DNA of 29,694 nucleotides, from positions 1-29,694 of the IMG/VR virus record IMGVR_UViG_3300024308_000053; one strand, 5' to 3'. A model generated the notes under the pieces. It searched no databases. It was not told where the DNA came from and was given only the letters and a program-made list of their open reading frames with translations. Position numbers and translations under genes: made by a program. The DNA comes from a virus. Of this stretch, positions 1 through 29,694 are shown one piece after another; the stretch's first letter is position 1, and each line of letters starts with the position of its first letter.

Positions 1-319
1 ACACTGGCCACACCTGATTGTTGAGGGGGATGCGCGCCATTTCATCATCGAGCTCATTGCCAACATCCGGCAGCGTGAAAGCTGCCTGTTGGTCCATGTC
101 GTTATTGTTGGCCGGGTTTTTGGCGTCCATAGGCGACGGTTCGAATGTCACCGTCTCGCCGGTCTCTAACGTTGCCGTAAGGGGTGAGGTGCCACGCACG
201 ATAAGAAAACGTTTGGACAGCAACGGATGCGTTATTTCTACCGTAGTATAGTCAATCTGGCCCTCCGGGTTGGAGGCCAGTTTCAATTTGTACGCCGCTA
301 AAACTGAATCCTGACTCAT
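1..319 (-). CDS. Tail tip protein, DUF1833-like (C-terminus outside the window)
   Basis: The reading frame opens at an ATG at 317-319, after an AGGT ribosome site, and runs off the left edge, so only about 106 residues are visible. The start (MSQDSVLAAYKLKLASNP) and the following run of short beta-strand-like segments resemble the small DUF1833 proteins found just after the tape measure and tip genes in lambda-like and chi-like siphophages. These are thought to belong to the baseplate or tail tip. It lies 8 bases after the preceding tail gene and shares its operon. The family call is from memory of the pattern, not from a search. Confidence 0.6.
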   Translation of the reverse strand, partial: MSQDSVLAAYKLKLASNPEGQIDYTTVEITHPLLSKRFLIVRGTSPLTATLETGETVTFEPSPMDAKNPANNNDMDQQAAFTLPDVGNELDDEMARIPLNNQVWPV

Positions 320-327
320 AGGCTTAC

Positions 328-1728
328 CTACATGATGAAATCAATGCGCGTGATGTATTTAGAACCCCAGGCGCTGTCGGCCTGTGGTATCGTCGCGTAC
401 CCTTCGACCGCTGCTACGTTTGTCGTAGAAGCGTCTGAATAGGTTATTTTTATTGCTGTTGCTTTGTTAGTCCTGACCTTTGCAATAGAAGCAGCGCGGG
501 TTATTACGGCGGCATCCGTTACTATCGGCTCCGCGACATCTGCGTTATTCTGCATTTGTACGTTAGCAAAAATAACACCGTCAACCCCATTCCCTGAAAA
601 AGTTGGTGCCCGTGTGCTGCTGACCAAAGGAACAGCCGCCATTATCGCATTACGCAGAGATGACATATCCCCAGTTACCTGAGCCGAACACGAGCATAAG
701 TACCAACCGCCCCCCAGGGGTGTTATCCGCCTGTTTGTCGCGCTCCCGGCGGTACTCTGGTTACTCAAATCAAAATTTGCATATTGGTCGGTTATTCCGG
801 TTGAACCCCCAGCGAAATATAACTGTACCACGTTCATTCCGGCGGCTTTAACAACGGCAGATATGTTGATTAAAGTTCCGGTCGGTAATGGGTTTACAGC
901 AGAAGCACGATAGTGCTGCGCCGATGTGCTATTAGGGATTAGCTTAAAACCATAAAAGTCGGCAAATATTCGTTCGTTAGATGTTTGAATGTTTAAATTA
1001 AGTGAGAACCAGTTTGAATTGCTTAAATCGCGGCTATATTTTAACAGATTAGATTCTGCGTTTCTTGGTTGGCCTCTCCCAACAGCGTAGCCGCCAATGT
1101 ACATAACAGGCCACTCATTAACGGCAGAAGGCACAAGAAGCCCGGAACTGTTTAGATAGTTAACAGAAGGACCTGTGTACTCAATACGTGAATCCAGGAC
1201 GGAAGCCAGCATATCAATCGGAGGATACCCAGCCGGGCCTTCGTTACTCCAGATACGCGGGAAGGTCGTTTGCGTGGTTCCGTATTCCGTCAGGAAATAT
1301 CCCAGGCAATCGCCGTAACAGCCAAAAAGGTCAGGAAGGTTTTCGGTAAGGCAATTATCTTCCTGAATCGCGGTGCGTTCGGCGGTTGCCGTGAATGAGA
1401 TGACCCAGTTCTTGCCGTCCTCAGTACTGTCACTTATCGTGCTGGTAATCATCACCTGGTGGTCGGCCAGACCATAGCCTGTGTCATTGACCATAATAAA
1501 CGAATCAGCGCCGCCGTTAATCTGCGTCAGGAAGCTGTAAAACGCCTGGCGGCCCAGATTAGACACAACCAGAGTGATGCTAATCGGTACAGGCTCAAAA
1601 TAAGTATCGCGGCCCTGGCGCGGCAGCCCGCCCTGAACGTCTGTGCGCCAGATATTATTGCCGCGCGTCTGCGAGTAGCCTTTTGATACAATAGGGCGTA
1701 ACGACGCCGGAAAACGTAAAGAACCCAT
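328..1728 (-). CDS. Minor tail / tail tip protein with a possible carbohydrate-binding module
   Basis: This 466-residue protein follows the tape measure gene by 2 bases, the usual place for a distal tail or tip protein. Residues 1-125 form a compact tail-type domain. After a Cys-rich stretch (about 125-145) comes a region starting near residue 230 with the pattern NLLKYSRDLSNSNWF and alternating aromatic and Gly-rich strands. I associate that pattern with carbohydrate-binding modules grafted onto phage tail proteins. The DNA for the C-terminal two thirds (about 400-1150) is visibly richer in A and T than the N-terminal part and the neighbouring tail genes, which suggests the binding module was exchanged. 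A receptor contact role is inference. Confidence 0.65.
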   Translation of the reverse strand: MGSLRFPASLRPIVSKGYSQTRGNNIWRTDVQGGLPRQGRDTYFEPVPISITLVVSNLGRQAFYSFLTQINGGADSFIMVNDTGYGLADHQVMITSTISDSTEDGKNWVISFTATAERTAIQEDNCLTENLPDLFGCYGDCLGYFLTEYGTTQTTFPRIWSNEGPAGYPPIDMLASVLDSRIEYTGPSVNYLNSSGLLVPSAVNEWPVMYIGGYAVGRGQPRNAESNLLKYSRDLSNSNWFSLNLNIQTSNERIFADFYGFKLIPNSTSAQHYRASAVNPLPTGTLINISAVVKAAGMNVVQLYFAGGSTGITDQYANFDLSNQSTAGSATNRRITPLGGGWYLCSCSAQVTGDMSSLRNAIMAAVPLVSSTRAPTFSGNGVDGVIFANVQMQNNADVAEPIVTDAAVITRAASIAKVRTNKATAIKITYSDASTTNVAAVEGYATIPQADSAWGSKYITRIDFIM

Positions 1729-1730
1729 GT

Positions 1731-4025
1731 TTAGTATCCTGGTAGCCCGCGTGTATTGCGGCGCGATTTAGAAATATCAGAATTGCTATCCTGCAAAGCG
1801 CGGGAGACTGTTTCGCTGATGATAACACGTAACCGGCCTTCGTCGTCACGTTCCGTAGTTGCACTGTCAATGCGCCCGGTCGTGTTGTTGACAATCACCA
1901 CGCTGTCATTCCCGCTGCGTTTATTATCTTCACCCATAATCTGGCGCATCTGAGCGGCGGTACGGACACGGGAGGCACCGGCGGGCATGATAACTTCTGC
2001 GCGACCCCGCTCGGCAATCGTTGACGCCTGCCCCGCGGCCAGATAACCCCCTTGCTCACGGGCAGAGCGAATCTTCGCTACGTTAGCCAGACCAGCGGCA
2101 ACGGCAGCGGCAGCCGCCACCGGAGCCGCAATCCACCCGACAATAGGAATGGCTGCCGCTGACTGAAACGCCGCCACGGCACCTACATACGTCTGCATGA
2201 TGGCATTAGCAATGGCGAAAGCCTTATACGCCTTATTGCCTTCGCCAAGAGCAGTTTTTAAGTCATCGGTTGTTTGACCAAGTATTCTGGCGTACTCATT
2301 GCGTCTCTTTTTGTCATAATTCTGCGCTATTCCGCGTTTCGCTTCCTGGTATTCTTCTTCGCTAATTAAATCCTCGGCCCGGAATTTATTAGCCATGTCT
2401 AGCTTCTGCTTTTCCTGAATCTCCAGCAAATCAAGCTCGACCGCATTTTGACCCAAAATCTGGGCCATGAAGTCTTCGCCTTTCTGCTGCTTCTCTTTCC
2501 GCTCTTTTTCGCGTTTGTCGAGTTCTTCCTGGCGTGCAGTGTCTGCCTCCAGCATAATTTGCGTTTTAGCGTCTTCGTACTGCTTATCCGACAGCGCACG
2601 TAATTCATGGAACTTATTCAGCTTATCCAGCTTCTGCTGTTCCTGCGCATCAATAGCTTTCAGCTCGTCCTGCTGCTGCCGTGCGAGCGTATCCAGAAAA
2701 TCCTGCGCTTGCTCCCTGTTACGTTTTGCCTCATCCGCGGCCTTTTTGGCGGCTTTTGCAGCATCAGGGTCCGGCTGTGCTGACGGGGAGCCGGGCTTGT
2801 TCTTAACGAGTTTGGAAAGGTCTACCTGTTGTTTAGCCCGTTCGTCGTACTCTTTACGCAGATTTTTGCTGGCGTCGACCTGGTCTTTGAAAGCCTGGAT
2901 AGTGTCGTCGCGCTCTTTATGGATAATATTGATTCGTGCGGCCAGCGCGCGCTCAATTTCTTTCGATTCGGCGGCGTAAGTGTCGGAGAAGCCAGACTCG
3001 CTGAACGGGTTGAGCGCATTAGCTACGGCGACACCGACAGCCCCGGCTTTCTTGACCAGCGCGTCAAACTCGTAATACACCTCTTTCATTATTGCGGCAA
3101 CATACGGCGGCAAGGCCGCAATGCCGTCAGAGATATCCGTCGCTATCGTGTTGCCGAATGGGGAAATGGCTTTGGCAGTGTTGTTGAAATCTTTGTTTAG
3201 GTCGTTCAGCCAGTCAGAGATAAACGAGAAAGAGTTATCGAACAGGTCTGTCCAGGCGCTAATCTCGGCGGATAGCTGGCCTGATGCGATTAAGCCCGTC
3301 ATCTCGTTAATGGCGGTTTCCGCGTTTCGCACCTGCTCAGCAACCAGGTCACCAAATCCAGACTGCGCAACGCTTAATTTGAACGCCTCAAAACTGTCTT
3401 CCAGGCTGGAGATAGCCCCGTCAAGCGTCTTGGCACGCTGCTCCATCGCACCGGCGAACTGGGTGTTACCAATCGCCAGTAAATATTCCTGGATGGCTTC
3501 AGAGTTGTTTTTTACAGTTGTGGTGACGCCCTGGAACGTGAAGGCGATATCATTGCCCTGTTTACTGGACTTGATACCAAACTCTTTGAGTCGCTCAAAT
3601 TCACCAGTAGAGGCGTCCGCGACGGCCTCAATCATCTGGTTCAGGTCTTTACCCATCGCTGCGGCGGTGTTGCCGTAGGAGACTAGGGCTTCCTGCGACG
3701 GTTTAAGACCCAGCGCCACCAGTTTTGTAAAACCCTCAACGGCCTGGTTAAGGCCGTAAGGTGTATCTTTGGCGAACTGTTGCAACACGCCAAACGCTTT
3801 CGCGGCGTTTTCGGTGCTGCCCGTCATGGTGATAAGTCCGGCGTTTAACTTGTCAAAGTTACGCTGGGACTCCACCAGTGAGCTGAATACCTCTTTAGCC
3901 GCAGCCAGACCACCCACGGCAGCGCCAGCCGCCAGGGCTGCTTTACCGAGGCCCCTCAGAGCGCCGGAGGCATTGTCAACCCCTTGCGTTGTTACCCTGA
4001 CTATCAGGCTGGCAATATCAGACAT
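1731..4025 (-). CDS. Tail tape measure protein
   Basis: At 764 residues this is one of the two longest genes in the window. It lies directly after the tail chaperone pair, the fixed place of the tape measure. Residues 1-220 resemble the lambda-family tape measure N-terminus (VTTQGVDNASGALRGLGKAA, then the TPYGLNQAVEGFTKL region). Residues about 390-590 are a long charged coiled coil rich in K, E, Q and D. Near residues 610-670 is a strongly hydrophobic Ala-rich segment that could enter the host membrane during DNA ejection. At about 0.15 nm per residue the length predicts a tail near 115 nm. Its ATG overlaps the end of the T reading frame by 8 bases. Confidence 0.93.
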   Translation of the reverse strand: MSDIASLIVRVTTQGVDNASGALRGLGKAALAAGAAVGGLAAAKEVFSSLVESQRNFDKLNAGLITMTGSTENAAKAFGVLQQFAKDTPYGLNQAVEGFTKLVALGLKPSQEALVSYGNTAAAMGKDLNQMIEAVADASTGEFERLKEFGIKSSKQGNDIAFTFQGVTTTVKNNSEAIQEYLLAIGNTQFAGAMEQRAKTLDGAISSLEDSFEAFKLSVAQSGFGDLVAEQVRNAETAINEMTGLIASGQLSAEISAWTDLFDNSFSFISDWLNDLNKDFNNTAKAISPFGNTIATDISDGIAALPPYVAAIMKEVYYEFDALVKKAGAVGVAVANALNPFSESGFSDTYAAESKEIERALAARINIIHKERDDTIQAFKDQVDASKNLRKEYDERAKQQVDLSKLVKNKPGSPSAQPDPDAAKAAKKAADEAKRNREQAQDFLDTLARQQQDELKAIDAQEQQKLDKLNKFHELRALSDKQYEDAKTQIMLEADTARQEELDKREKERKEKQQKGEDFMAQILGQNAVELDLLEIQEKQKLDMANKFRAEDLISEEEYQEAKRGIAQNYDKKRRNEYARILGQTTDDLKTALGEGNKAYKAFAIANAIMQTYVGAVAAFQSAAAIPIVGWIAAPVAAAAAVAAGLANVAKIRSAREQGGYLAAGQASTIAERGRAEVIMPAGASRVRTAAQMRQIMGEDNKRSGNDSVVIVNNTTGRIDSATTERDDEGRLRVIISETVSRALQDSNSDISKSRRNTRGLPGY

Positions 4026-4386
4026 CGTCTTTACCCTCGTATATGGCGTCCAGGCCCATTATCAGTTCGGACTCAAACATGCTGATGTTTTGCCCGGTAA
4101 TCTGGCTATAAGATATCAAATCAGACCACTCAAGCATATCTCTTGCATACAGTTTAACGCCGCTTTCGTCCTCACGGCGGATAAACTTTAGCTCCCGGTA
4201 CTTTTCAAAGGTGCTGATAAAGACTGGCGGGCACTCTGGCCCGCTGTCCTGCGCTGTTCGCTGCGCACTGTCGATTACACCCATTGCGATTAGTGCGGCC
4301 TCGTGCGCATCGGCTATGCTGTCAAATTTCTGACGGGCCTGCCGCGCGACGAGTTGCCAGGAGGCGAACGCGTACAGCGCGTTTAC
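4018..4386 (-). CDS. Tail assembly chaperone T extension, made by -1 frameshift (GT)
   Basis: A frame lying -1 to the preceding chaperone is open from the end of that gene (codon GTA at 4386-4384) to 4018. It encodes 34 residues (from VNALYAFASWQL) that join without a break to 88 more (MGVIDSAQR...EGKDDV). The ATG at 4284 has no ribosome site in front of it and sits in the middle of an even alpha-helical sequence, so I do not think it is the true start. This is the GT arrangement of lambda-like phages, where the T extension recruits the tape measure protein. The GT product would be about 260 residues (138+34+88). It overlaps the tape measure start by 8 bases. Confidence 0.82.
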   Translation of the reverse strand, partial: VNALYAFASWQLVARQARQKFDSIADAHEAALIAMGVIDSAQRTAQDSGPECPPVFISTFEKYRELKFIRREDESGVKLYARDMLEWSDLISYSQITGQNISMFESELIMGLDAIYEGKDDV

Positions 4387-4393
4387 TTTTCCT
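4382..4393 (-). promoter_or_regulatory. Programmed -1 frameshift site (G to GT)
   Basis: On the minus strand the sequence reads AGGAAAAGTAA. With AAG in the ribosomal P site and the stop TAA in the A site, lysine tRNA can slip back one base to AAA, giving GTA AAC in the new frame. This is not the classic lambda GGGAAAG heptamer. The A-run plus stop codon is nevertheless a known kind of slip context. No strong stimulating hairpin was identified directly downstream. Confidence 0.65.
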
Positions 4394-4799
4394 GTAACAG
4401 TTTCCGCTGTTCCGCCTGGAACTCAGCGACCTGGTTGCCGAGTGTGCGGTATTGGGCGAGAAGGTTTTCCAGCGCTTCTTTTGAGAAAGGCTCGTCGAAA
4501 CTCCAGCCATTTACAATTTCGGCGGCGAGCTGGCGGTTTAGCTCGGTACAGGCGTCATTAAGAAGCACGTTATATTCTGTGAAGTCTTCCTGCTTTTTAC
4601 ATTTCTTCTGTAAAGGCTCCAGCTCTGCCACTTTAGCGCGATACGCAAACAGGAACGCGCGGCCTGCCTTGACAGCGGCGTCGGCTTCAGGCGCGACAAC
4701 ATTCAGCCATTCGCCAGAATCAGTGCCATCCGGCAGCAAAATCGGCATACGTGCGCCAGTCTGGGCTTTATCTTCAAAATAAAAATCGCTGAGTTGCAT
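4383..4799 (-). CDS. Tail assembly chaperone G
   Basis: This 138-residue helical, charged protein lies between the tail tube and tape measure genes, where the short chaperone form of siphophages is found. The first 45 residues look like a small beta domain. The rest is helical with many E, K, Q and L. The start has a good AAGGA site. The gene ends GAA AAG TAA, with an A AAG slip site directly before the stop, which allows a fraction of ribosomes to enter the -1 frame. It is separated from the tail tube gene by a plus-strand cassette and has its own promoter at 4891-4919. Confidence 0.85.
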   Translation of the reverse strand: MQLSDFYFEDKAQTGARMPILLPDGTDSGEWLNVVAPEADAAVKAGRAFLFAYRAKVAELEPLQKKCKKQEDFTEYNVLLNDACTELNRQLAAEIVNGWSFDEPFSKEALENLLAQYRTLGNQVAEFQAEQRKLLQEK

Positions 4800-4839
4800 T
4801 TTCTTTTCCTTTGGTTAAGAGGTTACTGGTCTGGTTGAA

Positions 4840-4884: not shown

Positions 4885-4890
4885 AAAAAT

Positions 4891-5981: not shown

Positions 5982-5997
5982 TTGGGGCCTTTTTTTT
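5970..5997 (+). terminator. Two-way Rho-independent terminator
   Basis: The stem AAGGCCCC (5970-5977) pairs exactly with GGGGCCTT (5984-5991). It is followed by a T-run on the plus strand and flanked by an A-run that gives Ts on the minus strand. It ends the plus cassette and also sits just after the tail tube gene, so late transcription must stop here or be made to pass. Confidence 0.9.
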
Positions 5998-7162
5998 ATG
6001 CGTAGGTGATTCGCTGGATGACGATAGAAGACTGATAGGCGTTACCCGTGGCCTGACCTTCGATAGACAGCGTAACGGATTCCGGTCCGCCAATCTCAGG
6101 TGTTGCCGCGGTAATCTCCGCACGTTTCAGCGTGAAGGACATTGCCCCCTGCGTGCCGGACAGAACAGAGGTTAATTCCACCTGCGTTTCATTCAGGAAC
6201 AGGTTTAGCAGTGTCATGTCGTACAGCTTACCAGCAAGCGAGAAGGTGTTAGCCGCGCGGCCACGCTCAACGAAAGCCACGCTGTCATTACCAAGCTCGA
6301 ACTGAGCAGACGTTCCGTTATCGTTGGTGATAGTGAAGGTATCAATCAGTTTCAGCGGCGCGGTGCCGTTGTACGCGGATACATCCACACTTGAGAATGG
6401 TTCAGCGGTGAAGCTGGTATACGTTGACCCGGCAGGCGGCGCGGTAAGAATCTCCTGGCTCAGACCGATGAACGGGAAGGAACCGGTCACCATCGCGTTG
6501 ACAGCCTGTTCAATGGTGAAGCCGGAGAACTCAACTCCGCGTGTAATGACGTAACTGTCAGCGCCGCCGCAACGACCTTTAAACCAGGTGAGTATGGAGT
6601 ATGTCTTACACAGGTTGCCGGTTTCCAGCTTGTCGCCGGTTTTATAATCGGTAGCCGCCGCTGCGGCAGTTGTCAGCGGCTTCTGGATGCCAGCGCCGGT
6701 TACCACAGTAGCAGTCACCGCGGTAACGATGAAAGGCTTACCGTTTTCACCCGGCAGGTCGGTAAAGGCAATCAGGTTGCCAACTTCAACGCCATCAGTG
6801 ATAAAGCTGCCGGTTGAACGGGTGAATGTTTTCGCTGTCGCATCAACGGCAACAGAAACAGAGGTCTGAGATACACCAGCCACCCATGAACTCGTCATGG
6901 CTCCAGCCAGTAATTCGTCCTGGCTCTGCGCACTCAGTTCAATCGCGTATTCGCCGGTTACCTGTTTGTTACCGGTGCGGATGGATGATGTTTCGCGGCT
7001 GCCGTCCAGCTCGTTTGAAACCAGCGCGTCGCGTGTTACAGCAGGCACGCCTCCGGTGTTGCGCAGCGGCGACCATACCGGACTCGTCGGAGTGACGCCA
7101 GGCGTAGTCTCCAGTGTGTAGAATTGTGCGGTATTCGCGCCTTTATAGGGTTGCAGTGCCAT
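5996..7162 (-). CDS. Major tail tube protein
   Basis: This 388-residue protein follows the tail terminator gene. The N-terminus (MALQPYKGANTAQFYTLETTPG) and the layout (NELDGSRETSSIRTGNKQVTGEYAIEL) match the siphophage tail tube type with a beta-sandwich, as in Phage_tube-like families. Residues about 95-165 (VSVAVDATAKTFTRSTGSF ...) look like an inserted or decorating beta domain, which would explain the larger size compared with a minimal tube protein of about 200 residues. The ribosome site is GAGGA. It polymerises around the tape measure to form the tail. Confidence 0.9.
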   Translation of the reverse strand: MALQPYKGANTAQFYTLETTPGVTPTSPVWSPLRNTGGVPAVTRDALVSNELDGSRETSSIRTGNKQVTGEYAIELSAQSQDELLAGAMTSSWVAGVSQTSVSVAVDATAKTFTRSTGSFITDGVEVGNLIAFTDLPGENGKPFIVTAVTATVVTGAGIQKPLTTAAAAATDYKTGDKLETGNLCKTYSILTWFKGRCGGADSYVITRGVEFSGFTIEQAVNAMVTGSFPFIGLSQEILTAPPAGSTYTSFTAEPFSSVDVSAYNGTAPLKLIDTFTITNDNGTSAQFELGNDSVAFVERGRAANTFSLAGKLYDMTLLNLFLNETQVELTSVLSGTQGAMSFTLKRAEITAATPEIGGPESVTLSIEGQATGNAYQSSIVIQRITYA

Positions 7163-9812: not shown

Positions 9813-10862
9813 TTAAGCGCCGACACCAGTTACCAGGAACGCAATCGGAATGTGCTTGCGGTCCATTACGCGGTTCCAGTTAGTTGCGTTCGCCAGGTCC
9901 TGCCAGGAAGCGGAGCGCGCGATAGTTTCACTGCCGTTGCCTGTGATTACCGCGCTGGTGAAGCTGTAGCCCAGTGGGTGCATCAGCCAGGTGCGGCGGC
10001 TCCACAGGGTTTCTACGCCACCACCGTTACCGCGCTCTGGAGAGCGCTGATATTCCAGCGGCATATTTGGATTACCTTCACCGTAACCGATAGCGCCGTT
10101 GCCAAAGATGACGCTGATGAACTTACGGCTTGAGCCGGTGCCAACCACGGTCATTTCGTCGTCTACAACTACGCGGTAGCCCTGGTATGTGGAGAACATG
10201 GTGTTGTTTTCGGCGTCACGCACGAAGTCGATAAGCTGCTGCTTACGGGCCTGTGCGTATACGAAGCTGTGCATCGCAATAACGCCCAGCACATCACCGC
10301 CCGCGCCCATCAGAGCGTCGCCCATAGTCTGGGTTGCGTCGATAAACGCGCCAGCGTCAAAACCAGATGTAGCAGAAACGTCAATAATCATGTCGTTCTG
10401 CGTGTGGTACGCGTCAGTAGCGGACACGTTGTCGTTGTACAGACCCAGGGTAGTCGCCAGGAGGCGGCGTTGCGCCTGGCGCTGCCAGAAGTTATCCAGA
10501 CGACGTGCAACTGATTGCAGCGGGTTTTGGCTGGTCAGCTCAACGGTTAAATCCGCCTGGCCGAAACCTTCGTTAAGGTATGCAACACGAACATCCATTT
10601 CGCCGGTGTTAATTGCGCGCGGAGTCGCGATGTCCTGGTACACGTCGTTCGAGTAGTTAGGCTCGATAGATGCGTCGATAGATTTCCAGTACGGCAGCAC
10701 AGCTCTATTCGACGAGCCACGGGCGATTTCAGCGGCGTATGGCGTCGGGGTAAGAATACCGGACTGGAAGAACGCGGTTTTTTCTACCGGGTCTTCGGTC
10801 ATGTAAGACGCCAGTACAGGGATGTTACCGGTTACGATGTCGCCAATAGTGGTGATTGCCAT
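9813..10862 (-). CDS. Major capsid protein
   Basis: This 349-residue protein follows the scaffold gene by 3 bases with a GAGGA site. The sequence MAITTIGDIVTGNIPVLAS ... NPLQSVARRLDNFWQRQAQRRLL and the MHSFVYAQARKQQ helix match the coat-protein family with the HK97 fold. It forms the icosahedral shell with the scaffold and portal. No protease gene was seen near it, so maturation probably does not use a separate head protease. Confidence 0.93.
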   Translation of the reverse strand: MAITTIGDIVTGNIPVLASYMTEDPVEKTAFFQSGILTPTPYAAEIARGSSNRAVLPYWKSIDASIEPNYSNDVYQDIATPRAINTGEMDVRVAYLNEGFGQADLTVELTSQNPLQSVARRLDNFWQRQAQRRLLATTLGLYNDNVSATDAYHTQNDMIIDVSATSGFDAGAFIDATQTMGDALMGAGGDVLGVIAMHSFVYAQARKQQLIDFVRDAENNTMFSTYQGYRVVVDDEMTVVGTGSSRKFISVIFGNGAIGYGEGNPNMPLEYQRSPERGNGGGVETLWSRRTWLMHPLGYSFTSAVITGNGSETIARSASWQDLANATNWNRVMDRKHIPIAFLVTGVGA

Positions 10863-15349: not shown

Positions 15350-15441
15350 TCATTAACCATCATGTAAAGTGCGCAGGCGATAGCGAGGATGACCGCGCAA
15401 GCCACCACCATAAACGCTACCAGAATAACGAATTTAATCAT
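15346..15441 (-). CDS. 31-residue single-helix membrane peptide between portal and MuF genes
   Basis: The start ATG (15439-15441) overlaps the portal stop as ATGA, and its own stop overlaps the MuF start as ATGA, so it is coupled on both sides. The peptide begins MIKFVILVAFMVVACAVIL and is hydrophobic almost to its end (ALYMMVNE). A peptide kept in frame between two essential head genes is likely to be translated. Whether it acts in the membrane, for example in lysis or exclusion, is unknown. Confidence 0.6.
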   Translation of the reverse strand: MIKFVILVAFMVVACAVILAIACALYMMVNE

Positions 15442-16922
15442 GGCTGCGTACCCTGTTCAATCTCGCCCTGTTGTGCGGTTGTCGGGATGTCTCCGACGGT
15501 CGGTTGAACCGGTGCTACTGAAGTAGGCGCCTGCGCCTCTACGGCGTCAAGAATATCAGCATCTTCCCAGTCAGTTACGCCCGCCTTACGTAGTGCCGCA
15601 TAATAGGCTGTAGCCGGTAACAGACCCGCGTTAATGTCCGCCATCCATGCAGCACGGTCCTGTGCGGTCATTGGCTGCAGGAAGAAGTCCATATTCAGTT
15701 TAAATTCAATCTCCACACCCTCACGCATCCCAAGCATTGCGGCGACCCACGTTAAGGCGTCGGTGTAGGCCTGGCTTACGTTGCGGGCGATGGTCGACAT
15801 AACGGACGTATCAGCACCGCGCTGGATGCGCGCCGACTCCGCAGTAATCTGTGTTGATGGTGTGATAAGCTGTGCGCCAATCTGCACGGCCTGCGTCTCT
15901 TTATCCAGCATGTTCTGTTTTGCCAGGTTGTTCTCTGTGGCCTGAACCAGTTTAGCGTCGCCGCCAGAACCGAGGTTATGGCCTGTGCGGCTGCCGAATT
16001 TAATACCGTTCGGGTTAGCCTCTTTGAACAAGGACGGGCTCATCTGCTCACCAGGGAAGATAAACAGCGTGGGCTGGCCTACCACAAAGCTGGATTCTTC
16101 GTTATCCGCACTGTTCCGGAAATGGCCGATGTTAAGCTCCGCCAGCGGCAGCATCGGCGCGTCGTCTACAGTAGCGTCGTTGTTGCTGGCGCCAATAAAC
16201 GTGAACGGAATCCGGCCTTCCAGTTGGGGCCCGAGCTGCGGATAGATTGTCGTTACGTCCTGCTGAGCGCCACCGGCCGCATCGAAACGGTAAATGCGCT
16301 GGCGATACTTGCCGTTTTCGTCCAGGTCAAGCACGCGATATTGCTCGCCAATTTTGGTTTCGAACTCGTTGTCTGCTTCGTAGTATTCCCACACCTCACG
16401 CAGCACAATCATCACTACGCGGTTAACCGAACCGAAGCGCTTCATGCGCCAGTTGATGATGTTCTCTGCGGTGTAGAATGCGATAACCGGGTTTAATAAT
16501 CCATCGTTCTGCTCGGCAGCCGTGGCCGCGCCTACTTCAGGAGCGTCTACCAGCAGCCCACCACGGCCAATGGCGTCAATCTCCATCAGCGTATCCTGTG
16601 CGTGCTGCCACAGGCCAACGCCAGAACCGTCGCAGTTGGTGAGCAGGTATTCAAGCTGGTCGGGAATAATCTGTTCCGGGTCTTTGCGCATGACGCTGCC
16701 GACCATGCCGGAAAGTGTGCGCTTGGTGAAGTTATAGCAGATAGCGCCCTGCTCATATTCTGCCTGGCGTGCTTCACCGTAGGTTTTATCTGGCTCGTTC
16801 AGGCCGACGTTGCGCAGGTAGCTGATAAGGTCGCCCGCAACAGCGTTACGCACCTTCTTCCATTTCTCGAAGTGGTAAAGCCACTCGCGGTGTTTTGTTT
16901 TTACGCTGTTGTCGTTGCTCAT
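15438..16922 (-). CDS. Portal protein (DUF4055-type)
   Basis: This 494-residue protein has the DUF4055 portal pattern: start HREWLYHFEKWKKVRNAVAG, RTLSGMVGSVMRKDPEQI, then PFTFIGASNND and ESARIQRGADTSVMSTIARN. It forms the 12-fold ring through which DNA enters and leaves the head and binds the large terminase. It lies after terminase and before the MuF-like gene, and its start overlaps the stop of the small gene before it. Confidence 0.93.
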   Translation of the reverse strand: MSNDNSVKTKHREWLYHFEKWKKVRNAVAGDLISYLRNVGLNEPDKTYGEARQAEYEQGAICYNFTKRTLSGMVGSVMRKDPEQIIPDQLEYLLTNCDGSGVGLWQHAQDTLMEIDAIGRGGLLVDAPEVGAATAAEQNDGLLNPVIAFYTAENIINWRMKRFGSVNRVVMIVLREVWEYYEADNEFETKIGEQYRVLDLDENGKYRQRIYRFDAAGGAQQDVTTIYPQLGPQLEGRIPFTFIGASNNDATVDDAPMLPLAELNIGHFRNSADNEESSFVVGQPTLFIFPGEQMSPSLFKEANPNGIKFGSRTGHNLGSGGDAKLVQATENNLAKQNMLDKETQAVQIGAQLITPSTQITAESARIQRGADTSVMSTIARNVSQAYTDALTWVAAMLGMREGVEIEFKLNMDFFLQPMTAQDRAAWMADINAGLLPATAYYAALRKAGVTDWEDADILDAVEAQAPTSVAPVQPTVGDIPTTAQQGEIEQGTQP

Positions 16923-17104: not shown

Positions 17105-18376
17105 TCACAAGGCAAAAGATACAGGGATGTTGATAACCGGTTTAACAATCGGCATTTCATAGGCGATTGGGTAGCCTGTCGCGTCGTTCTGGTGGTCGTT
17201 GCCGCTGGATTTATTCGGCTCACCGTTCTTGTCATAAGCCTGCTGCTCAAGACAGCGCGACGTAACCGGGCACGCCTGTTCGTTAACCATCAGCATACCA
17301 GATTCAAACGCCTTATTGACAGCGGCAACACGGTCTTTCACCGCCGGGTTAGTTGACTTTGCCCGAATCTCGAATCCGGCCTGCTGCAACTGTGCGATAT
17401 CGGAAGTTGATGCGTTGTTGCTCTTACGGTTCTTTCCGCTGGCGTCCGGGTACATAACGATGTGATGTCCGTTGCGCTTCCATCGTTCGCTAATGGCGCG
17501 GATGACGTCAGGCGTATCGTACATCTCTTTAAGTTCGTCAACTGCGTGCCAGACGTGCCCGCGCTGCACGTAGACCGTTGAGGCCATCTGCCCGACGTTG
17601 AAGTCCTGGCCGATGTACAGCGTTTCGCCAGGTTTAATCGTCTCACGGCTGCTGTGTCGCTGCCGGTTGTAGGCGTAGTACACTGTGCCGGATGTCAGGT
17701 TGGTAAACTCACCGTTAATGTACGCTTCGATAAGCTGCGCCGGATATGTCGCGCGCAGTGAGTCAACGTACCCCTCTGGCAGGAACGGATTCGACAGCGT
17801 TGAGGCCTGAATCATCTCGTAACCGGGTTTCTTGTTCACTACCCAGCGGTCATGTACGAAGCGGAAGCCTTCCGGCGTGGTGAAGATAGACACCGTGTTA
17901 ACCGGCTTCGGTGATATCGCTACGTAGGTGTCCGGCTTCTGGCGGTTACGGGCGATGATTTTGTTGAATGCGTGCTCTGCGTGCTCGCGTCTCAACGTGT
18001 CCAGTTCGTCTATTTTAGCACGGAACGACTCATAACCTACGATACGCGCCGGGTTGTCCAGGGTGCGCAGAACGAAATCGCCCAGCTGCCGGTTGGACGT
18101 ATAGATGATGTTGTCAGATTTGTTGTAGCGGTATCGCACGCCCCATTCCTGGAGTTTTTCCTCCATACGTGGAGCCAGTATAAGGCGCACCAGGTCGTAT
18201 GTTGGCTCGTACATGGCAATCATGGACGATGAACCGCCTTCCAGACTGTCAAGGAGTGCGGAGTTACACATCACCTCTGATTTACCAGTGCCGAACCCGG
18301 CAACGAAAGCCGGGAATTTACAGTGCATACCGAGGAATGCGGCCTGCGGCTCAGTCGCCTTTATGCTTATCTGCAC
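17105..18376 (-). CDS. terL: Terminase large subunit
   Basis: This protein has 423 residues. The ATPase domain shows Walker A GFGTGKS (27-33) and a Walker B-like KIDELDTL (121-128). The RNase H-like nuclease domain shows GQDFNVG (D258), YPDASG (D311) and NDHQNDA near the end. It drives packaging and cuts the DNA. I use the GTG at 18374-18376, which has a strong GGAGG site; it overlaps the small subunit gene by 26 bases. Confidence 0.95.
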   Translation of the reverse strand: MQISIKATEPQAAFLGMHCKFPAFVAGFGTGKSEVMCNSALLDSLEGGSSSMIAMYEPTYDLVRLILAPRMEEKLQEWGVRYRYNKSDNIIYTSNRQLGDFVLRTLDNPARIVGYESFRAKIDELDTLRREHAEHAFNKIIARNRQKPDTYVAISPKPVNTVSIFTTPEGFRFVHDRWVVNKKPGYEMIQASTLSNPFLPEGYVDSLRATYPAQLIEAYINGEFTNLTSGTVYYAYNRQRHSSRETIKPGETLYIGQDFNVGQMASTVYVQRGHVWHAVDELKEMYDTPDVIRAISERWKRNGHHIVMYPDASGKNRKSNNASTSDIAQLQQAGFEIRAKSTNPAVKDRVAAVNKAFESGMLMVNEQACPVTSRCLEQQAYDKNGEPNKSSGNDHQNDATGYPIAYEMPIVKPVINIPVSFAL

Positions 18377-18857
18377 TGACGACCTCCACGACCACTTTCT
18401 GGATTGGCTCGTTGCTCTGTTCTGATTCTTCTTTCGCAGCCTTCCATCCGTGGCGGTCCTGCATGAACAGGTTAAGCAGGCTCGTACCTATACCGGCTGC
18501 GGCCAGCTCTACGGCAAATGATTGCTGAAGCTGGCGGGCCATCTGGTAGGCTTCGGCAAACTCCGGGTGGCGGCGCTGCCAGTCGTCCAGGACGCGGGTT
18601 GATACGCCGATGCTGTGGCACCAGCGGGCGACAGTAGGGATTTTGCTTTTAGGGATAGCCTTCATGCTACCCTTCATGTCTTCGTTGATTTCCCACGACT
18701 CAGGATTGGCGAAGTAGTCGACGATGGCCTGGCAGTATTCAGGTCGGTAGTTAGTCGGGCGGCCAAAGACATAGCCCTCCGGCTTTTCCTTGTCGCCTGT
18801 TTTACGTGCTGGCGTTACACCGGCAATGCCTTTTGGCTTAGCCTTGCCAATCTTCAT
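18351..18857 (-). CDS. terS: Terminase small subunit
   Basis: I start at the ATG at 18855-18857 (MKIGKAKPKGIAG), which has a GGAGA site; the frame is open further upstream to 18959 but passes through the promoter and leader. This gives 168 residues. VARWCHSIGVSTRVLDDW is a helix-turn-helix-like segment and the C-terminal part (MARQLQQSFAVELAAAG) is helical, in the manner of P22 gp3-type DNA-packaging proteins. It recognises the packaging site on the concatemer. Confidence 0.87.
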   Translation of the reverse strand: MKIGKAKPKGIAGVTPARKTGDKEKPEGYVFGRPTNYRPEYCQAIVDYFANPESWEINEDMKGSMKAIPKSKIPTVARWCHSIGVSTRVLDDWQRRHPEFAEAYQMARQLQQSFAVELAAAGIGTSLLNLFMQDRHGWKAAKEESEQSNEPIQKVVVEVVSADKHKGD

Positions 18858-18881
18858 GGGGTAAATCTCCTGTCTGATGCG

Positions 18882-18923
18882 GTTATGACCATCATAACGC
18901 ATGAGACGCGCCCTGCGCATCTC
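18882..18923 (-). other. Tandem hairpins in the terminase leader
   Basis: On the minus strand GAGATGCGC AGG GCGCGTCTC (18903-18923) is followed by GTTATGA TGG TCATAAC (18882-18898). One pair in the first stem is G-U only on the minus strand, which supports that sense. The pair lies at the very start of the predicted transcript. Confidence 0.55.
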
Positions 18924-18930
18924 TGATGGG

Positions 18931-18959
18931 ATTATATAGCGAGATATTGACAAAGGCAA
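18931..18959 (-). promoter_or_regulatory. Promoter of the terminase (late) operon
   Basis: A TTGCCT -35 (18954-18959), a 17-base spacer and a perfect TATAAT -10 (18931-18936) are seen on the minus strand. The -35 lies in the T-rich tail of the terminator of the operon before it. Confidence 0.72.
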
Positions 18960-24507: not shown

Positions 24508-24538
24508 TGTCTCTGTCTCCGTTGGTTAACTGATACTC

Positions 24539-24910: not shown

Positions 24911-24946
24911 TTTCACACCTCTGAAATAGGATATATCTTAGTTACG

Positions 24947-25005: not shown

Positions 25006-25011
25006 ACCCGT

Positions 25012-25194: not shown

Positions 25195-25246
25195 TTCTCT
25201 GTCTCCTTTAATTGTTATGTTGTAACATCACAATCGCACGCCACAA

Positions 25247-25462
25247 TCAACCGGCGTTAAAAGACCCGAGCACAACACCAGACTTACGCGGCTTCTTAAT
25301 CTCCGTTGCCGTTGCGCCATTTTTGAAGTTTGTGCGGCCTATGCAATCTGTAGACGCGGCTTTAGCAATTTCTATCGCTTCTTCCGGTGTCTTAGCCCAC
25401 ACGATAAAAGAGTCGTACTCATCATAGCTGTAGTCTTCTGCTTCAACGTTCCAAAGTTTCAT
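25247..25462 (-). CDS. 71-residue protein of unknown function
   Basis: It starts after GAGGAG. MKLWNVEAEDYSYDEYDSFI, then VWAKTPEEAIEIAKAASTDC: a beta-beta-alpha layout in which an acidic Tyr-rich strand pair is followed by the helix TPEEAIEIA. Small early phage proteins of this pattern (W...YDSF.V.A...EEA...A) are widespread and unassigned. It is the first gene of its operon. Confidence 0.65.
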   Translation of the reverse strand: MKLWNVEAEDYSYDEYDSFIVWAKTPEEAIEIAKAASTDCIGRTNFKNGATATEIKKPRKSGVVLGSFNAG

Positions 25463-25490
25463 TTTCCATCTCCTCTGTTGGCGTACACAG

Positions 25491-25519
25491 ATATTACGAC
25501 ACTAATACTATGATTGCAA
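25491..25519 (-). promoter_or_regulatory. Sigma-70 promoter for 25462-24564
   Basis: TTGCAA (25514-25519), 17 bases and TAATAT (25491-25496) are seen on the minus strand, 29 bases before the start codon. It lies next to the iteron region. Confidence 0.8.
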
Positions 25520-25617
25520 GTAGCAGCCAACATAATTCTTTGCGCTGCCGGTAGTCACTTTTATCTTTGCTGCCGTGTTGCATGCTTAAATGAATAATCA
25601 TCAAGATGGATGGTGGG

Positions 25618-25818
25618 TCCGACAGACCACCACCATTCATCGTTAGATGATAGTGTCGGAAATTCTGTCGGAACCATCGGTAACCCGCATGGATGCTGAA
25701 TCCGACAACTTTCCGACAGGATGTCGGCAGCAACTTTTGTCGGGGGTTTTGTCGGAACATATTTATTCACTTTTTCTGCATAACTATTCACAGCCAACAT
25801 TGTCGGAACGTGTCGGCT
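25618..25818. repeat. Iteron cluster, candidate replication origin
   Basis: Ten copies of TGTCGG lie within 201 bases: seven on the plus strand (starting at 25654, 25666, 25722, 25738, 25750, 25801, 25811) and three inverted (within 25618-25625, 25701-25707, 25711-25718). Many extend to TGTCGGAA. They come in pairs 10-12 bases apart, about one helix turn. An AT-rich stretch with two ATTCAC motifs (25758-25793) divides them. The cluster lies just after the primase-helicase gene, as origins often do beside initiator or helicase genes. No convincing gene lies in 25520-25829. Confidence 0.75.
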
Positions 25819-25829
25819 GAGCGTTGTTT

Positions 25830-28121
25830 TTAGTCATCTAAATCATCTGTTGGCTGCCCATCTGTGAAATCGTTAGGGCCTACCGGGATGCGGAATTGCA
25901 TATGCCGGTCTTCTTCGCCGTTAAGTAACCGTCCTTTTTTATCGCGTCCGTAACAGATGATGTTGCGTTCTGCCAGGGCCATAATCGCCGGTCTGCGCCT
26001 ACCGCCGTCGCCCGACAGTTTGATAATCTCGGAGACAGAATAACCCTGTGGCCGGTCTGATTCGTTCTGCAATTCCTCAAGCGCGGCGTAAACTTTCGCC
26101 TCATCTCCTTTCAGCATCGGGCCGTCTTCCTTCGTTTTCTTCGCCGCCAGGCGGCCTGCATCGGCAGCCTTTGAGTCGAACGGCAGCAATGCAACAGGTA
26201 TAAGAACGAGCGTCTCGTCACGTGGTGCCGATTCCAGTGGTTTTTGGGTGTAACCCTCTAAAAACATTGAGAAATCAGGTGCTGCCCGGTCCGATTGAAT
26301 CCCTAGTATAAAGTCATTGTGTGTCTCGGTAATTTCAATCTTACACTTAGCCAGCAGGAAGCCGCGGGGTAACTGTTTGGTGCTGCCGCGTGCCTTCTCC
26401 ATGTAAAAGTTCAGGCGCAGCGGTTCAGACTCGTCCGGCTGTTCAATGAAGTAGACGAAATCAACCGCACCATGCAGCGCGCCGGAGCCGCGACCGATGC
26501 GGCGTGTGCCTTTCTCGGATTTGGCCGGGTGGTGTACGACACCTGCGCACGCGCCAGTTTCATCGGCAATCGCCTTGAGCGCAGACGCCACCGTACCCAT
26601 ATCAGAGGAACTGTTCTCGTCGAACGGTTTATCCGACAGCGCAACCGACTGGTTCAGAGAGTCGAACGCCACCAGGCCGACCGGGTCAGTGCCTGCCGTC
26701 GTTCGGATGTGACGGATAATGGCGCGCTGGCCGGCCTTGCTGGTGATGTCCCAGCCTTCGGATTGCAGGTCGATGATGTGCAGCCAGTCCAGGTCGTCGC
26801 CGTAGGTCTTCTGTAGGGCCTGTTTGCGGTCCAGTGTCGTGCTGCCGCCCTCAGCATCGAAATAGAAGCTGTGCGACCTGATAACCTTCGCACCGGCAAA
26901 CGGCAGCCCGGCGGACGCACACGCCATCTGGCCGAGCAGGAAGAACGATTTCCCGATGTTTGACTCACCGACCAGCTCGAACGTCGATTTGAAGTTGTAC
27001 AGGCCGTCGATAATCGGGTCGCGCTTGGTGAACAGCGCGCACGGCTCGTCCATCAGGTCTTCGTCCTGGCACACGTGCGCGTCCAGACCGTCCGCCGCAG
27101 CCTCTACCTGGTTACGGTGGACGTGCTCTACCTCGTCCTCATCCATGAAAGGGAACAGCTCGGCAATTTGCTTCTTCGAAATGTTATGCGCTTCCGGTAA
27201 ATAACTATCTGGCACGCCAACAAGTTGAAGCATCATGTGCTGGTGGCTGTTCAGGTTGCGACAGTGCGCGTGCTGGCAGACGAAACGCACTTCCGGGTGC
27301 AGTGAATCCGGCAGCATAATAGCCGTATCACCCTCGGTGCCGTCGCGGCCGTCGGTGTGGCTCATGTGGTTCGGGCACTGGATAGCCCAGCCGCGCCCCG
27401 ACGGCATCATCTCCAGACCCATCTCGAACGCCCAGCCTGCGATGGCCTGGCTATTCTCCGACGCCATGAGTAGTGATTCTTCCGACCATACCGTGTTGCC
27501 GGACTCGCTCGGTGGCTCGTAGCCATTGTTTAGCATACGGGTAACGCGCACGGGCTTGCCCTCGCCTTCCCAGAATTCCGCGCCATACGGAGGAACGAAC
27601 ATGATGCGGGCGCGCTGGTTAGCAGTCATATCGACCCCGGGAGCATCAATCAATCCGAGCTGGTCAAGCATAGCGTGCTGCACATGCCAGATTTCATCGG
27701 CGGCCATGGGTACGTTAGTTGGGATAAGGAAACGTACGGCGCGCAGTTCCTCATCACCTTTTACAGGGTGGCGGTCGCCGCTGGTGCTGTGCGCGAAGTA
27801 AGCCAGGCCCAAATCGTTAAGTTGGCGCGTGACTTTGCGGACTTCTCGGGTAGACACACCGTCCAGGTCGATGAAGAGGATGGAGCGGCCCAGCACGGTG
27901 TCGTTAGAGCGTACCTTATCAACGGCAGCGGCGATGTAGTTCTGCTGTTTCTTCTTGCGGTCGTACTGCTCTCTGGTTTCGTCGCCTGAGAACTCAACGC
28001 CCAGGCTTGGCTCGTCGATGTAGTCCATCATCTCGGCGATGAACTCCGGCCAGGTCATATCGTAGTTTTTGGCGCGACGGGATTTAGCATCGTTGCCAAT
28101 GGAGAAAAGAATGTTTTCCAT
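25830..28121 (-). CDS. Primase-helicase (AEP-like primase plus RepA-like helicase)
   Basis: This protein has 763 residues. Residues 80-180 look like an archaeo-eukaryotic type primase: ILFIDLDG (Asp85, Asp87), AHSTSGDRH (near 110), RFLIP and GVDMTANQRARIMFVPP. Residues 249-293 carry a zinc-type C..H...C..H..C set. Residues 385-392 are Walker A (GESNIGKS) and 483-488 Walker B (LVAFDS), with YFDAEGG (420-426) between, as in RepA/DnaB-like hexameric helicases. The end (near 690-745) resembles a winged helix. It should make primers and unwind DNA at the origin. The start has AAAGGT. Confidence 0.88.
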   Translation of the reverse strand: MENILFSIGNDAKSRRAKNYDMTWPEFIAEMMDYIDEPSLGVEFSGDETREQYDRKKKQQNYIAAAVDKVRSNDTVLGRSILFIDLDGVSTREVRKVTRQLNDLGLAYFAHSTSGDRHPVKGDEELRAVRFLIPTNVPMAADEIWHVQHAMLDQLGLIDAPGVDMTANQRARIMFVPPYGAEFWEGEGKPVRVTRMLNNGYEPPSESGNTVWSEESLLMASENSQAIAGWAFEMGLEMMPSGRGWAIQCPNHMSHTDGRDGTEGDTAIMLPDSLHPEVRFVCQHAHCRNLNSHQHMMLQLVGVPDSYLPEAHNISKKQIAELFPFMDEDEVEHVHRNQVEAAADGLDAHVCQDEDLMDEPCALFTKRDPIIDGLYNFKSTFELVGESNIGKSFFLLGQMACASAGLPFAGAKVIRSHSFYFDAEGGSTTLDRKQALQKTYGDDLDWLHIIDLQSEGWDITSKAGQRAIIRHIRTTAGTDPVGLVAFDSLNQSVALSDKPFDENSSSDMGTVASALKAIADETGACAGVVHHPAKSEKGTRRIGRGSGALHGAVDFVYFIEQPDESEPLRLNFYMEKARGSTKQLPRGFLLAKCKIEITETHNDFILGIQSDRAAPDFSMFLEGYTQKPLESAPRDETLVLIPVALLPFDSKAADAGRLAAKKTKEDGPMLKGDEAKVYAALEELQNESDRPQGYSVSEIIKLSGDGGRRRPAIMALAERNIICYGRDKKGRLLNGEEDRHMQFRIPVGPNDFTDGQPTDDLDD

Positions 28122-28135
28122 GCTGCTACCTTTAT

Positions 28136-28173
28136 TTGACTATTTTAGCAACACGGCGCTATACTCGTGTTGC
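28136..28173 (+). promoter_or_regulatory. Promoter with built-in operator for the small RNA
   Basis: TTGACT (28136-28141), 18 bases and TATACT (28160-28165) form a good plus-strand promoter. A perfect inverted repeat GCAACACG (28148-28155) / CGTGTTGC (28166-28173) with a 10-base spacer surrounds the -10 box, so a dimeric repressor bound here would block it. The same repeat also lies in the leader region of the primase gene on the other strand. Confidence 0.75.
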
Positions 28174-28250
28174 ACACACTGAGGTTTTGTTGTAATGGTT
28201 CGACCCACTCTTCGAGAAAAGCCCCGCTCATTTTGATGCCGGGGCTTCTT
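28172..28250 (+). ncRNA. Candidate small RNA of about 80 bases
   Basis: It spans from the predicted start of the promoter above (near 28172) to the terminator (stem 28221-28245). Nothing sizeable is coded: only a 13-codon frame (MVRPTLREKPRSF, 28195-28236) with GAGG ten bases before it, whose end overlaps the terminator stem. The unit therefore either makes a regulatory RNA or a micro-peptide. It lies between primase and the regulator genes, both on the other strand. Confidence 0.6.
28216..28250. terminator. Two-way Rho-independent terminator
   Basis: GCCCCG (28221-28226) pairs with CGGGGC (28240-28245). On the plus strand TTCTTTTT follows, on the minus strand TTTTC. It ends the small RNA in one direction and the regulator operon in the other. 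Confidence 0.88.
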
Positions 28251-28251
28251 T

Positions 28252-28413
28252 TTATCCTGTAGTTTTATCGCGAGTTGCTCTGTAAGAATCCCGCCACGCC
28301 AACCACGTATAAAGAGATAATTCTTCCCATTCCTCATCTGAAAATGTTTTGCGAGGGAAATTCTTATTTAACCAGGCAATGTGCAAATCCGCTAAATCAG
28401 AATCAGTAAACAT
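28252..28413 (-). CDS. 53-residue acidic protein coupled to the regulator
   Basis: It starts at the ATG at 28411-28413, which shares one base with the stop of the HTH gene (TAATG). MFTDSDLADLHIAWLNKNFP, then TFSDEEWEELSLYTWLAWRD: a small helical, Trp-rich, acidic protein. Coupling to the regulator suggests it works with it, for example as its anti-repressor or partner. This is inference. Confidence 0.62.
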   Translation of the reverse strand: MFTDSDLADLHIAWLNKNFPRKTFSDEEWEELSLYTWLAWRDSYRATRDKTTG

Positions 28414-28634
28414 TATTCCACATCTCCTTCCGCCAGCCAGCGCGGGTCTACTTCCAGCACATCGGCCATCTTGAACAGCAGGTTCACATCGGCAATATTG
28501 TTACGCCCACAGCACAGGTGGCTGATTGCCGATTGTGTCACGCCGCAGCGCTGCGCCATCTCAATTTGCATAATGCCTTTCGCACGCATGGTTTCACGAA
28601 GGCGGGTACTAAACTCGGTCGGTTGTGGCTTCAT
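28413..28634 (-). CDS. Cro/CI-like HTH regulator (XRE family)
   Basis: This protein has 73 residues. Residues 8-67 are a typical XRE helix-turn-helix: STRLRETMRAKGIMQIEMAQ, RCGVTQSAISHLCCGRNNI, then LLFKMADVLEVDPRWLAEG. The recognition helix is about 33-41 (TQSAISHLC). It is as short as Cro and has no CI-type protease domain. It is divergent from the plus operon at 28780, so it probably controls that promoter and its own. The start has AGGAG. Confidence 0.92.
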   Translation of the reverse strand: MKPQPTEFSTRLRETMRAKGIMQIEMAQRCGVTQSAISHLCCGRNNIADVNLLFKMADVLEVDPRWLAEGDVE

Positions 28635-28663
28635 TACATAGCTCCTTGGTTGTTTGTCGTCAT

Positions 28664-28693
28664 AATATACATCAGTAATCCTGCGCCGTACAA
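28664..28693 (-). promoter_or_regulatory. Promoter of the HTH regulator
   Basis: TTGTAC (28688-28693), 18 bases and TATATT (28664-28669) are seen on the minus strand, 30 bases before the start codon. It faces away from the promoter at 28719-28748. Confidence 0.6.
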
Positions 28694-28708
28694 GCTGAAA
28701 ATTATTTT

Positions 28709-28748
28709 ACTAAAGTGCTTGCATAACGGATTAGTTTAGTATTATAGT
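28709..28748 (+). promoter_or_regulatory. Promoter and operator of the right operon
   Basis: TTGCAT (28719-28724), 18 bases and TATAGT (28743-28748) are seen on the plus strand. A 7-base inverted repeat TACTAAA (28708-28714) / TTTAGTA (28735-28741) brackets the -35 and spacer, as expected for a regulator site in a Cro-like divergent switch. Confidence 0.68.
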
Positions 28749-28779
28749 TCTCATCACCAACTGATACGGAGATAGACAA

Positions 28780-29040
28780 ATGACTTTACGAATTGATGGT
28801 TTAGAAGTTGAAACAATCGCTGATATCGAAGCGCAACGTAACGGGAAAGTTGCCGTTACTCTTATAGGGGCCGATATAACCGAAGTTATCGACGCTGACG
28901 AAATTGTGGCGGAGTACGGCGCGGACGTTCTGCTTGACGCAATTGGCGGGTTTGAAGATTGGTTTGATAAAGGTGGAATTAAGGCTGATGAGGTGGCCGA
29001 GTGGCTAGAATCACAAGGTTACACCGTAGAACGTAATTAA
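28780..29040 (+). CDS. Acidic protein of unknown function, first gene of the right operon
   Basis: This 86-residue protein has a GGAG site. MTLRIDGLEVETIADIEAQR, then VAVTLIGADITEVIDADEIV, then a helical end GIKADEVAEWLESQGYTV. It is strongly acidic with a beta-rich front. As the first gene under the regulated promoter it is likely expressed very early, and acidic proteins at this place often inhibit host enzymes. No family is recognised. Confidence 0.68.
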   Translation: MTLRIDGLEVETIADIEAQRNGKVAVTLIGADITEVIDADEIVAEYGADVLLDAIGGFEDWFDKGGIKADEVAEWLESQGYTVERN

Positions 29041-29091
29041 TCTCAAACGGCAACGCCGGGGCCCCAATCCGGCATATAAAAGGAACCAAAA
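29041..29091 (+). other. Intergenic hairpin before 29092
   Basis: GCCGG and CCGGC (29055-29073) pair across a GC-rich loop with no T-run. It could slow or process the message between the first two genes. The ribosome site AGGAACC follows. Confidence 0.35.
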
Positions 29092-29580
29092 ATGATTGCA
29101 TATCTTGAAAAATTCTTAGCACTGGTTGAACGCTTCGTAGTCGCTCATGAACTGATTGCGGCGAACTCTGCTCTTAATAAAGTAGATTCACTGTTAGTCG
29201 CTGCCGAAGTACCGTTTAAAGGGGAAGAAAAATCTGCTGCTGTTAAAGGCGGCGACAGGCCGAAACAGGAAGAAGACGACCTGGACGACGAGCCGGAAGA
29301 GAAGCCGAAGCAAAAACGCATGCGCGGGCAGTCTATCAAAGCCGCAGCGGAAGCAACTAAACCGAAAGGCCCGGACGTAGCGAAGCTGCGCGAAGAGATT
29401 AAGACCATCGCGAAAGCTATCGCTGCCGGTGATTCTGACGAATGCGCCGACAAGTTCGACGAGCTGCTGGAGGACTACAAAGTCCGCACGGTGACCAAGC
29501 TGGCCGACGAAGACGTCGAAGCGTTCCATAAAGACGCGACCAAGCTCGTTGGCAAATATTACGAAGTAGAAGAAGACTAA
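29092..29580 (+). CDS. Two-domain charged protein of unknown function
   Basis: This 162-residue protein has a hydrophobic helical start (MIAYLEKFLALVERFVVAHE), a very charged flexible linker (KQEEDDLDDEPEEKPKQKRM at 58-77) and a helical end (DVAKLREEIKTIAKAIAAGD ... VEAFHKDATKLVGKYY). Two helical domains joined by an acidic/basic linker fit a protein that brings partners together, for example at DNA. No family is recognised. Confidence 0.68.
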   Translation: MIAYLEKFLALVERFVVAHELIAANSALNKVDSLLVAAEVPFKGEEKSAAVKGGDRPKQEEDDLDDEPEEKPKQKRMRGQSIKAAAEATKPKGPDVAKLREEIKTIAKAIAAGDSDECADKFDELLEDYKVRTVTKLADEDVEAFHKDATKLVGKYYEVEED

Positions 29581-29587
29581 CAGCCGC

Positions 29588-29610
29588 GCCCTGGTTCGCC
29601 AGGGCCTTTT
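29588..29610 (+). terminator. Rho-independent terminator / attenuator
   Basis: GCCCTGG TTCG CCAGGGC is followed by CTTTTCTC. It has a perfect stem with a UUCG loop and moderate T-run. It lies between two plus-strand genes of the right operon, so some transcription may pass. Confidence 0.82.
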
Positions 29611-29628
29611 CTCAAGAGGGTTAGAGCT

Positions 29629-29694
29629 ATGAACATGCCTAAACATATTTCTACATTCAATAACCAACCTGTTACTGGTCGCACTCCGTATGAG
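29629..29694 (+). CDS. Start of a gene cut by the window end
   Basis: An open frame begins at the ATG at 29629 after AGAGGG. Only 22 residues are visible (MNMPKHISTFNNQPVTGRTP...), too few to identify. It follows a terminator-like hairpin. Confidence 0.55.
   Translation, partial: MNMPKHISTFNNQPVTGRTPYE

Follow-up and report, generated by a model that had tools for sequence, protein, structure and literature searches.

Absence of GATC from a 29,694 bp phage genome fragment and GATC depletion in the Guernseyvirinae

The stretch of viral DNA analysed here (the window) is the whole of the linear IMG/VR fragment IMGVR_UViG_3300024308_000053, 29,694 bp in length, and it raises the question of how a phage comes to lack the tetranucleotide GATC and what in its hosts would select against that word. 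Selection against GATC in enterobacteriophages is an idea reportedly published by McClelland in 1984 and by Deschavanne and Radman in 1991, and GATC loss in enterophages is said to have been known for four decades. The window is an instance of this known phenomenon in the Guernseyvirinae, a subfamily for which no published report of GATC depletion was found among open-access papers.

GATC counts and codon choice in the window

A machine count gives zero GATC in the window, as the initial annotation had claimed, compared with expectations of 98.2 from a second-order Markov model, 90.5 from a first-order model and 114.8 from base composition; the zero holds for the part of the genome represented by the record only. 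GATC is the most depleted of the 256 tetranucleotides and the only one with no copy, far below the next most depleted words, CTAG (13 observed, 37.6 expected) and CCTA (24 observed, 40.8 expected), and the count in 200 second-order Markov simulations ranged from 73 to 119. The trinucleotide ATC is preceded by A 154 times, by C 168 times, by T 113 times and never by G, and GAT is followed by A 144 times, by G 121 times, by T 107 times and never by C. The frequencies of CCWGG (Dcm), GANTC, GGNCC and CCNGG match expectation. Other palindromes are present, as had been noted, although the positions first given for them are off by 1–5 bases; the true ones are 8660 and 27573 for GAATTC, 15675 for CTGCAG, and 22840 and 27636 for CCCGGG.

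The loss is achieved by codon choice, as GATC is regained when ORFs are shuffled with their proteins held fixed. Permuting synonymous codons 500 times in 47 selected ORFs (85% of the window) yields 78.6±6.9 GATC with a minimum of 55, against zero observed. No other 4-bp palindrome rivals GATC in this shuffle (CTAG: 10 observed versus 28.9), which, together with its lowest rank among the 256 words, bears out the earlier claim that the loss is specific to GATC. Isoleucine is encoded by ATC in none of the 97 codons that follow a G and in 185 of 355 elsewhere, aspartate is encoded by GAT in none of the 62 codons that precede a C and in 205 of 452 elsewhere, and the 47 ORFs contain no NGA-TCN codon pair. 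The loss of GATC leaves the proteins unchanged, and the selection is on the DNA.

The absence of GATC from the window is strongly non-random. The probability that it stems from chance composition, from codon bias or from a fault of assembly or library preparation (e.g. a fragment from a GATC-cutting library) is negligible. The sole point in favour is that the record is a metagenomic fragment, whereas the simulation and codon-shuffle minima are 73 and 55, and neither end of the window is GATC, such that it is not a Sau3AI or MboI restriction fragment; an artefact is refuted by equal depletion in independently isolated complete genomes. The depletion of CTAG, second to that of GATC (13 of ~38), probably has a separate cause, since phages that infect other hosts are poor in CTAG as well.

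Identity of the phage and GATC in its subfamily

DNA and protein comparisons assign the window to the Guernseyvirinae, as part of the genome of a virulent phage near Cornellvirus. Its homologues of the terminase, portal, capsid and tail genes keep the gene order of the subfamily (Table 1), and its capsid, which is the basis of both the tree and the host comparison below, falls within the Guernseyvirinae clade (SH-aLRT 96% and 99%). The two tail assembly chaperone ORFs (4018..4799) match separate halves of one profile, suggesting that they are probably joined by the usual programmed frameshift. The helicase-primase corresponds to the autonomous, virulent-type replication gene of GATC-poor Guernseyvirinae. 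Complete relatives are about 41–45 kb in length and roughly 12 kb of the genome lies outside the record, including the part where relatives encode the DNA polymerase, the tail spike, and either a methylase or a Mom-like protein. The host is therefore predicted from kinship, and is likely Salmonella or another enterobacterium; the nearest named relatives infect Salmonella. No methylase of the PF05869 or PF02086 families was found in the window (with ~12 kb of the genome outside the record) or in the complete GATC-poor relatives L002–L005, L007 and L016.

Table 1. Predicted genes of the window and the evidence for their assignment.
Feature	Coordinates	Strand	Evidence
Tail tape measure protein	1731..4025	-	phrog_1538, E 1e-160; contains no GATC
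Two tail assembly chaperone ORFs	4383-4799 and 4018-4284	-	Two halves of one profile, phrog_15027
Major/minor tail tube protein homologue	5996..7162	-	phrog_290; syntenic with L003 gp50
Major capsid protein	9813..10862	-	85-87% identity to Guernseyvirinae major head proteins
Portal protein	15438..16922	-	78-82% identity to Guernseyvirinae portals
Terminase large subunit	17105-18376	-	Synteny and DNA match to annotated relatives
Terminase small subunit	18351-18959	-	phrog_3064; synteny and DNA match to annotated relatives
Replicative helicase-primase	25830..28121	-	phrog_3228, E 1e-302

All 15 of 15 named Guernseyvirinae genomes are nearly devoid of GATC, with 2–11 sites per ~42 kb (observed:expected ratio, O/E, of 0.02–0.07), so that the zero of the window is a family trait. 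Metagenomic relatives contain further zero or near-zero stretches (e.g. G004, with one GATC in 40 kb). DNA of relatives homologous to the window has 0.080 GATC per kb and their non-homologous DNA is denser (0.166 per kb). The density in relatives predicts only ~2.4 sites for the window (Poisson probability of zero ~0.09), and a zero is thus ordinary within the group.

The residual GATC sites number 92, of which 51 can be aligned to at least three relatives and occur in a single genome. In 588 of the 825 aligned comparisons at residual sites the second genome differs from GATC by one base; these counts are non-independent because the genomes are related. The pattern is one of sites that appear to arise by mutation or import and then disappear.

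Several of these genomes encode DNA modification functions. A Mom-family gene (PF25680, E 2e-37) adjoins the DNA polymerase gene in Cornellvirus genomes (L003:6112-6717; also L002 and L015). In phage Mu, mom is regulated via Dam sites, and such sites are nearly missing from these three Cornellvirus genomes. Mom was considered as a source of relief from GATC avoidance and rejected, as its carriers are as GATC-poor as other relatives; a cytosine methylase was rejected likewise, with L007 and L014 (annotated in L016) being equally GATC-poor. The phage G010 encodes a divergent D12-class adenine methylase (L134:1206-1922) that scores under the Dam cut-off, and still avoids GATC.

GATC in relatives on other hosts and in phages with protected DNA

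A capsid-based search located the same capsid lineage in 17 genuine named host genomes. Phage loci in Pseudomonas, Paracoccus, Aureimonas and Roseibacterium, hosts without MutH, have GATC O/E of 0.94–1.10, and those in Acinetobacter, also without MutH, are a little low (0.72–0.77). Values of 0.22, 0.46 and 0.48 were obtained for loci in Rosenbergiella, Pantoea and Siccibacter, respectively, and a search of 18 host genomes for MutH (TIGR02248) found it in these three and in no other. Chromosome samples of the same three hosts have O/E of 0.71–1.01, and the low phage values are therefore not merely host background. The capsid tree provides four independent MutH contrasts, all four in the expected direction (p 0.125, significance being out of reach with only four contrasts). 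The effect of MutH is confounded with those of Dam, SeqA and enterobacterial identity. A metagenomic clade with capsids 74–81% identical to that of the window has O/E of 0.88–1.03, and one of its capsids shares 92% identity with one from a Pseudomonas edaphica contig. The more distantly related Shewanella phage 3/49, from another gamma-proteobacterium, has an O/E of 0.28.

The close relatives G006, G001 and Serratia phage Eta are intermediate (0.2–0.6). They contain a lambda-like or Eta-like replication module together with ParB. Enterobacterial prophage-like relatives fall in this same range, as does temperate lambda (0.55 by the same counting). G006 (L130:13373-19787, L129:1841-3555) and G001 (L132) combine a Guernseyvirinae-type capsid module with an early region of lambda or Eta type. 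That of G006 encodes an O-like initiator, a DnaC-like loader and ParB, and that of G001 a primase, SSB and ParB; G006 has two separate exonuclease/annealing-protein pairs. A phage Dam gene (PF05869) is present in G006 (L129:1161-1700) and in the related metagenomic phage contig G005 (L131:797-1330), and with two in-frame stop codons in each it is probably dead. It was thus rejected as the reason for the GATC in these two contigs, for which the temperate-like life suggested by the lambda-like replication module is a better one; no tyrosine integrase was found in either.

Virulent phages outside the group differ according to whether their DNA is protected. The same counting gives 0.04 for T7 (6 of 141 expected), which lacks Dam, and 0.78 and 0.95 for T1 and KP36, which are virulent and in both of which a phage Dam was confirmed. 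The Queuovirinae, members of the same capsid superfamily as the window's group, carry 7-deazaguanine DNA and are undepleted, with values of 1.03 for slur01 (Escherichia coli) and 0.91 for Kpn2-P2 (Klebsiella), in which Que genes are annotated. TLS, which has its own Dam, contains >200 methylated GATC (PMC11447400). T1, TLS and KP36 (own Dam, PF05869) encounter the same hosts and GATC readers as the window's group but keep normal GATC numbers, whereas the window, within the record, has no PF05869 or PF02086 methylase.

MutH and other candidate readers of GATC

According to the initial annotation, some factor recognizing GATC selects strongly against it, as in certain coliphages, and this holds on word counts, codon shuffle and relatives. 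As the pressure follows MutH hosts and spares phages that encode a Dam or have 7-deazaguanine genes, the relevant reader would be one acting on un- or under-methylated GATC. The best explanation, with a probability of about 0.6, is purifying selection against under-methylated GATC nicked or cut by MutH, which would have purged the phage lineage in Dam+ MutH+ hosts. Fast-replicating phage DNA, including that of the window's phage, would escape full Dam methylation in the cell, and un- or hemimethylated GATC would be the place where MutH activated by MutS and MutL nicks or double-cuts. Every GATC would then cost the phage, such that point mutations destroying it, mostly synonymous, become fixed, and new or imported sites would soon be lost.

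Among possible readers of under-methylated GATC, MutH is the likely main agent. It fits best because it is nearly universal in Enterobacterales (188 of 197 genomes, with seven of the nine lacking it being 1 Mb or smaller) and because dam- mutH+ cells give lower yields of phage (Deschavanne and Radman 1991, as cited in PMC5014478). Counting against a MutH cost, phiX174 with 20 added GATC has no clear short-term growth defect, and the forces behind GATC avoidance are called unclear by the authors of that study (PMC5014478); further points against are the avoidance in G010 in spite of its adenine methylase, and the slightly low values in Acinetobacter, which has no MutH.

Escape from Type II restriction would also purge sites if hosts often carry MboI/DpnII/Sau3AI-type enzymes. 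GATC is under-represented in 46 of 46 phages whose hosts encode a matching restriction enzyme, and the generally weaker depletion in temperate phages fits such avoidance (PMC6286503); a phage Dam or modified DNA would protect from these enzymes too. However, GATC nucleases over the cut-off in the 197 Enterobacterales genomes number two for the DpnII family and none for the DpnI family, versus 188 for MutH, in a survey confined to these two families, to which enzymes of other kinds, systems on plasmids and differences between strains may add. MboI-type systems would moreover provide no fresh self/non-self mark in enterobacteria, whose DNA is already Dam-methylated, and restriction avoidance is considered unlikely. 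The window resembles the restriction-site avoidance described by Rusinov et al. 2018, who list GATC among avoided sites (PMC6286503), in that a short palindrome is nearly excluded and more so in non-temperate phages, but differs in that the theory requires a matching enzyme and DpnI- and DpnII-family enzymes are rare in the sampled Enterobacterales. Methyl-dependent restriction of the DpnI type was rejected, with 0/197 for the family and with own-Dam phages keeping their sites, which disfavours any reader of methylated GATC. Dependence on the phage's own polymerase was also rejected as a cause: phiX174 replication uses the host replisome, yet phiX174 lacks GATC.

A somewhat smaller probability is given to SeqA or Dam as the reader of hemi- or under-methylated GATC, e.g. 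through sequestration of GATC clusters during replication or packaging. Their host range is largely that of MutH, and the profile searches of host genomes covered Dam and MutH. The comparative data fail to separate either from MutH, as hemimethylation would be briefer with a phage Dam, and 7-deazaguanine could prevent binding. Against this, SeqA requires paired GATC sites at suitable spacing and should therefore spare isolated ones, yet the loss in the window is total. No published case of a SeqA effect on phage yield was found; the published effect, as cited in PMC5014478, is that of mutH.

Selection on mutation rate, in which GATC-free DNA evades methyl-directed mismatch repair and so mutates and adapts faster, is improbable as the main cause, though the phiX174 data suggest that it may contribute. 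The mutation rate of phiX174 with 20 extra GATC is eightfold lower, but some GATC have no effect on the rate and are missing from phiX174 nonetheless, and the effect is gone under stress (PMC5014478). Second-order selection is also weak at single sites, and virulent phages with their own Dam keep GATC although an equal gain from its loss would be expected.

Purging by MutH would place the window beside T7 and phiX174 (GATC 0/20; PMC5014478), in which Dam-less virulent phages of Dam+ MutH+ enterobacteria show a near-total and GATC-specific loss. The Guernseyvirinae differ in being an unrelated phage group whose capsid lineage is traceable onto MutH-less hosts, where GATC is normal. They offer a usable comparison, and with hosts that have and lack MutH and with differing replication modules within one capsid lineage the causal test is well defined. 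A more tentative proposal, possible but doubtful, is that MutHLS protects nearly all enterobacteria from virulent phages as a permanent innate defence, one strong enough to bring GATC to zero in whole lineages. If so, the subfamily would be a natural record of this pressure turning on and off, based on close relatives on MutH-negative hosts and on GATC-containing chimeras.

DNA of such phages should be little or not cut by MboI, Sau3AI, DpnI and DpnII, and GATC content may help to infer the host group and lifestyle of metagenomic phages. Two records have questionable host labels. L013 (PP389045.1), a Jerseyvirus with a GATC O/E of 0.05, is labelled as a Pseudomonas syringae phage, a designation that may be wrong. 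A capsid match in Taishania pollutisoli (Bacteroidota) was rejected as a case of avoidance on a MutH-less host, as the contig, L138 (NZ_JACVEL010000023.1), is a Salmonella Jerseyvirus with 97.2% identity to phage 95YS and is probably a contaminant of that assembly.
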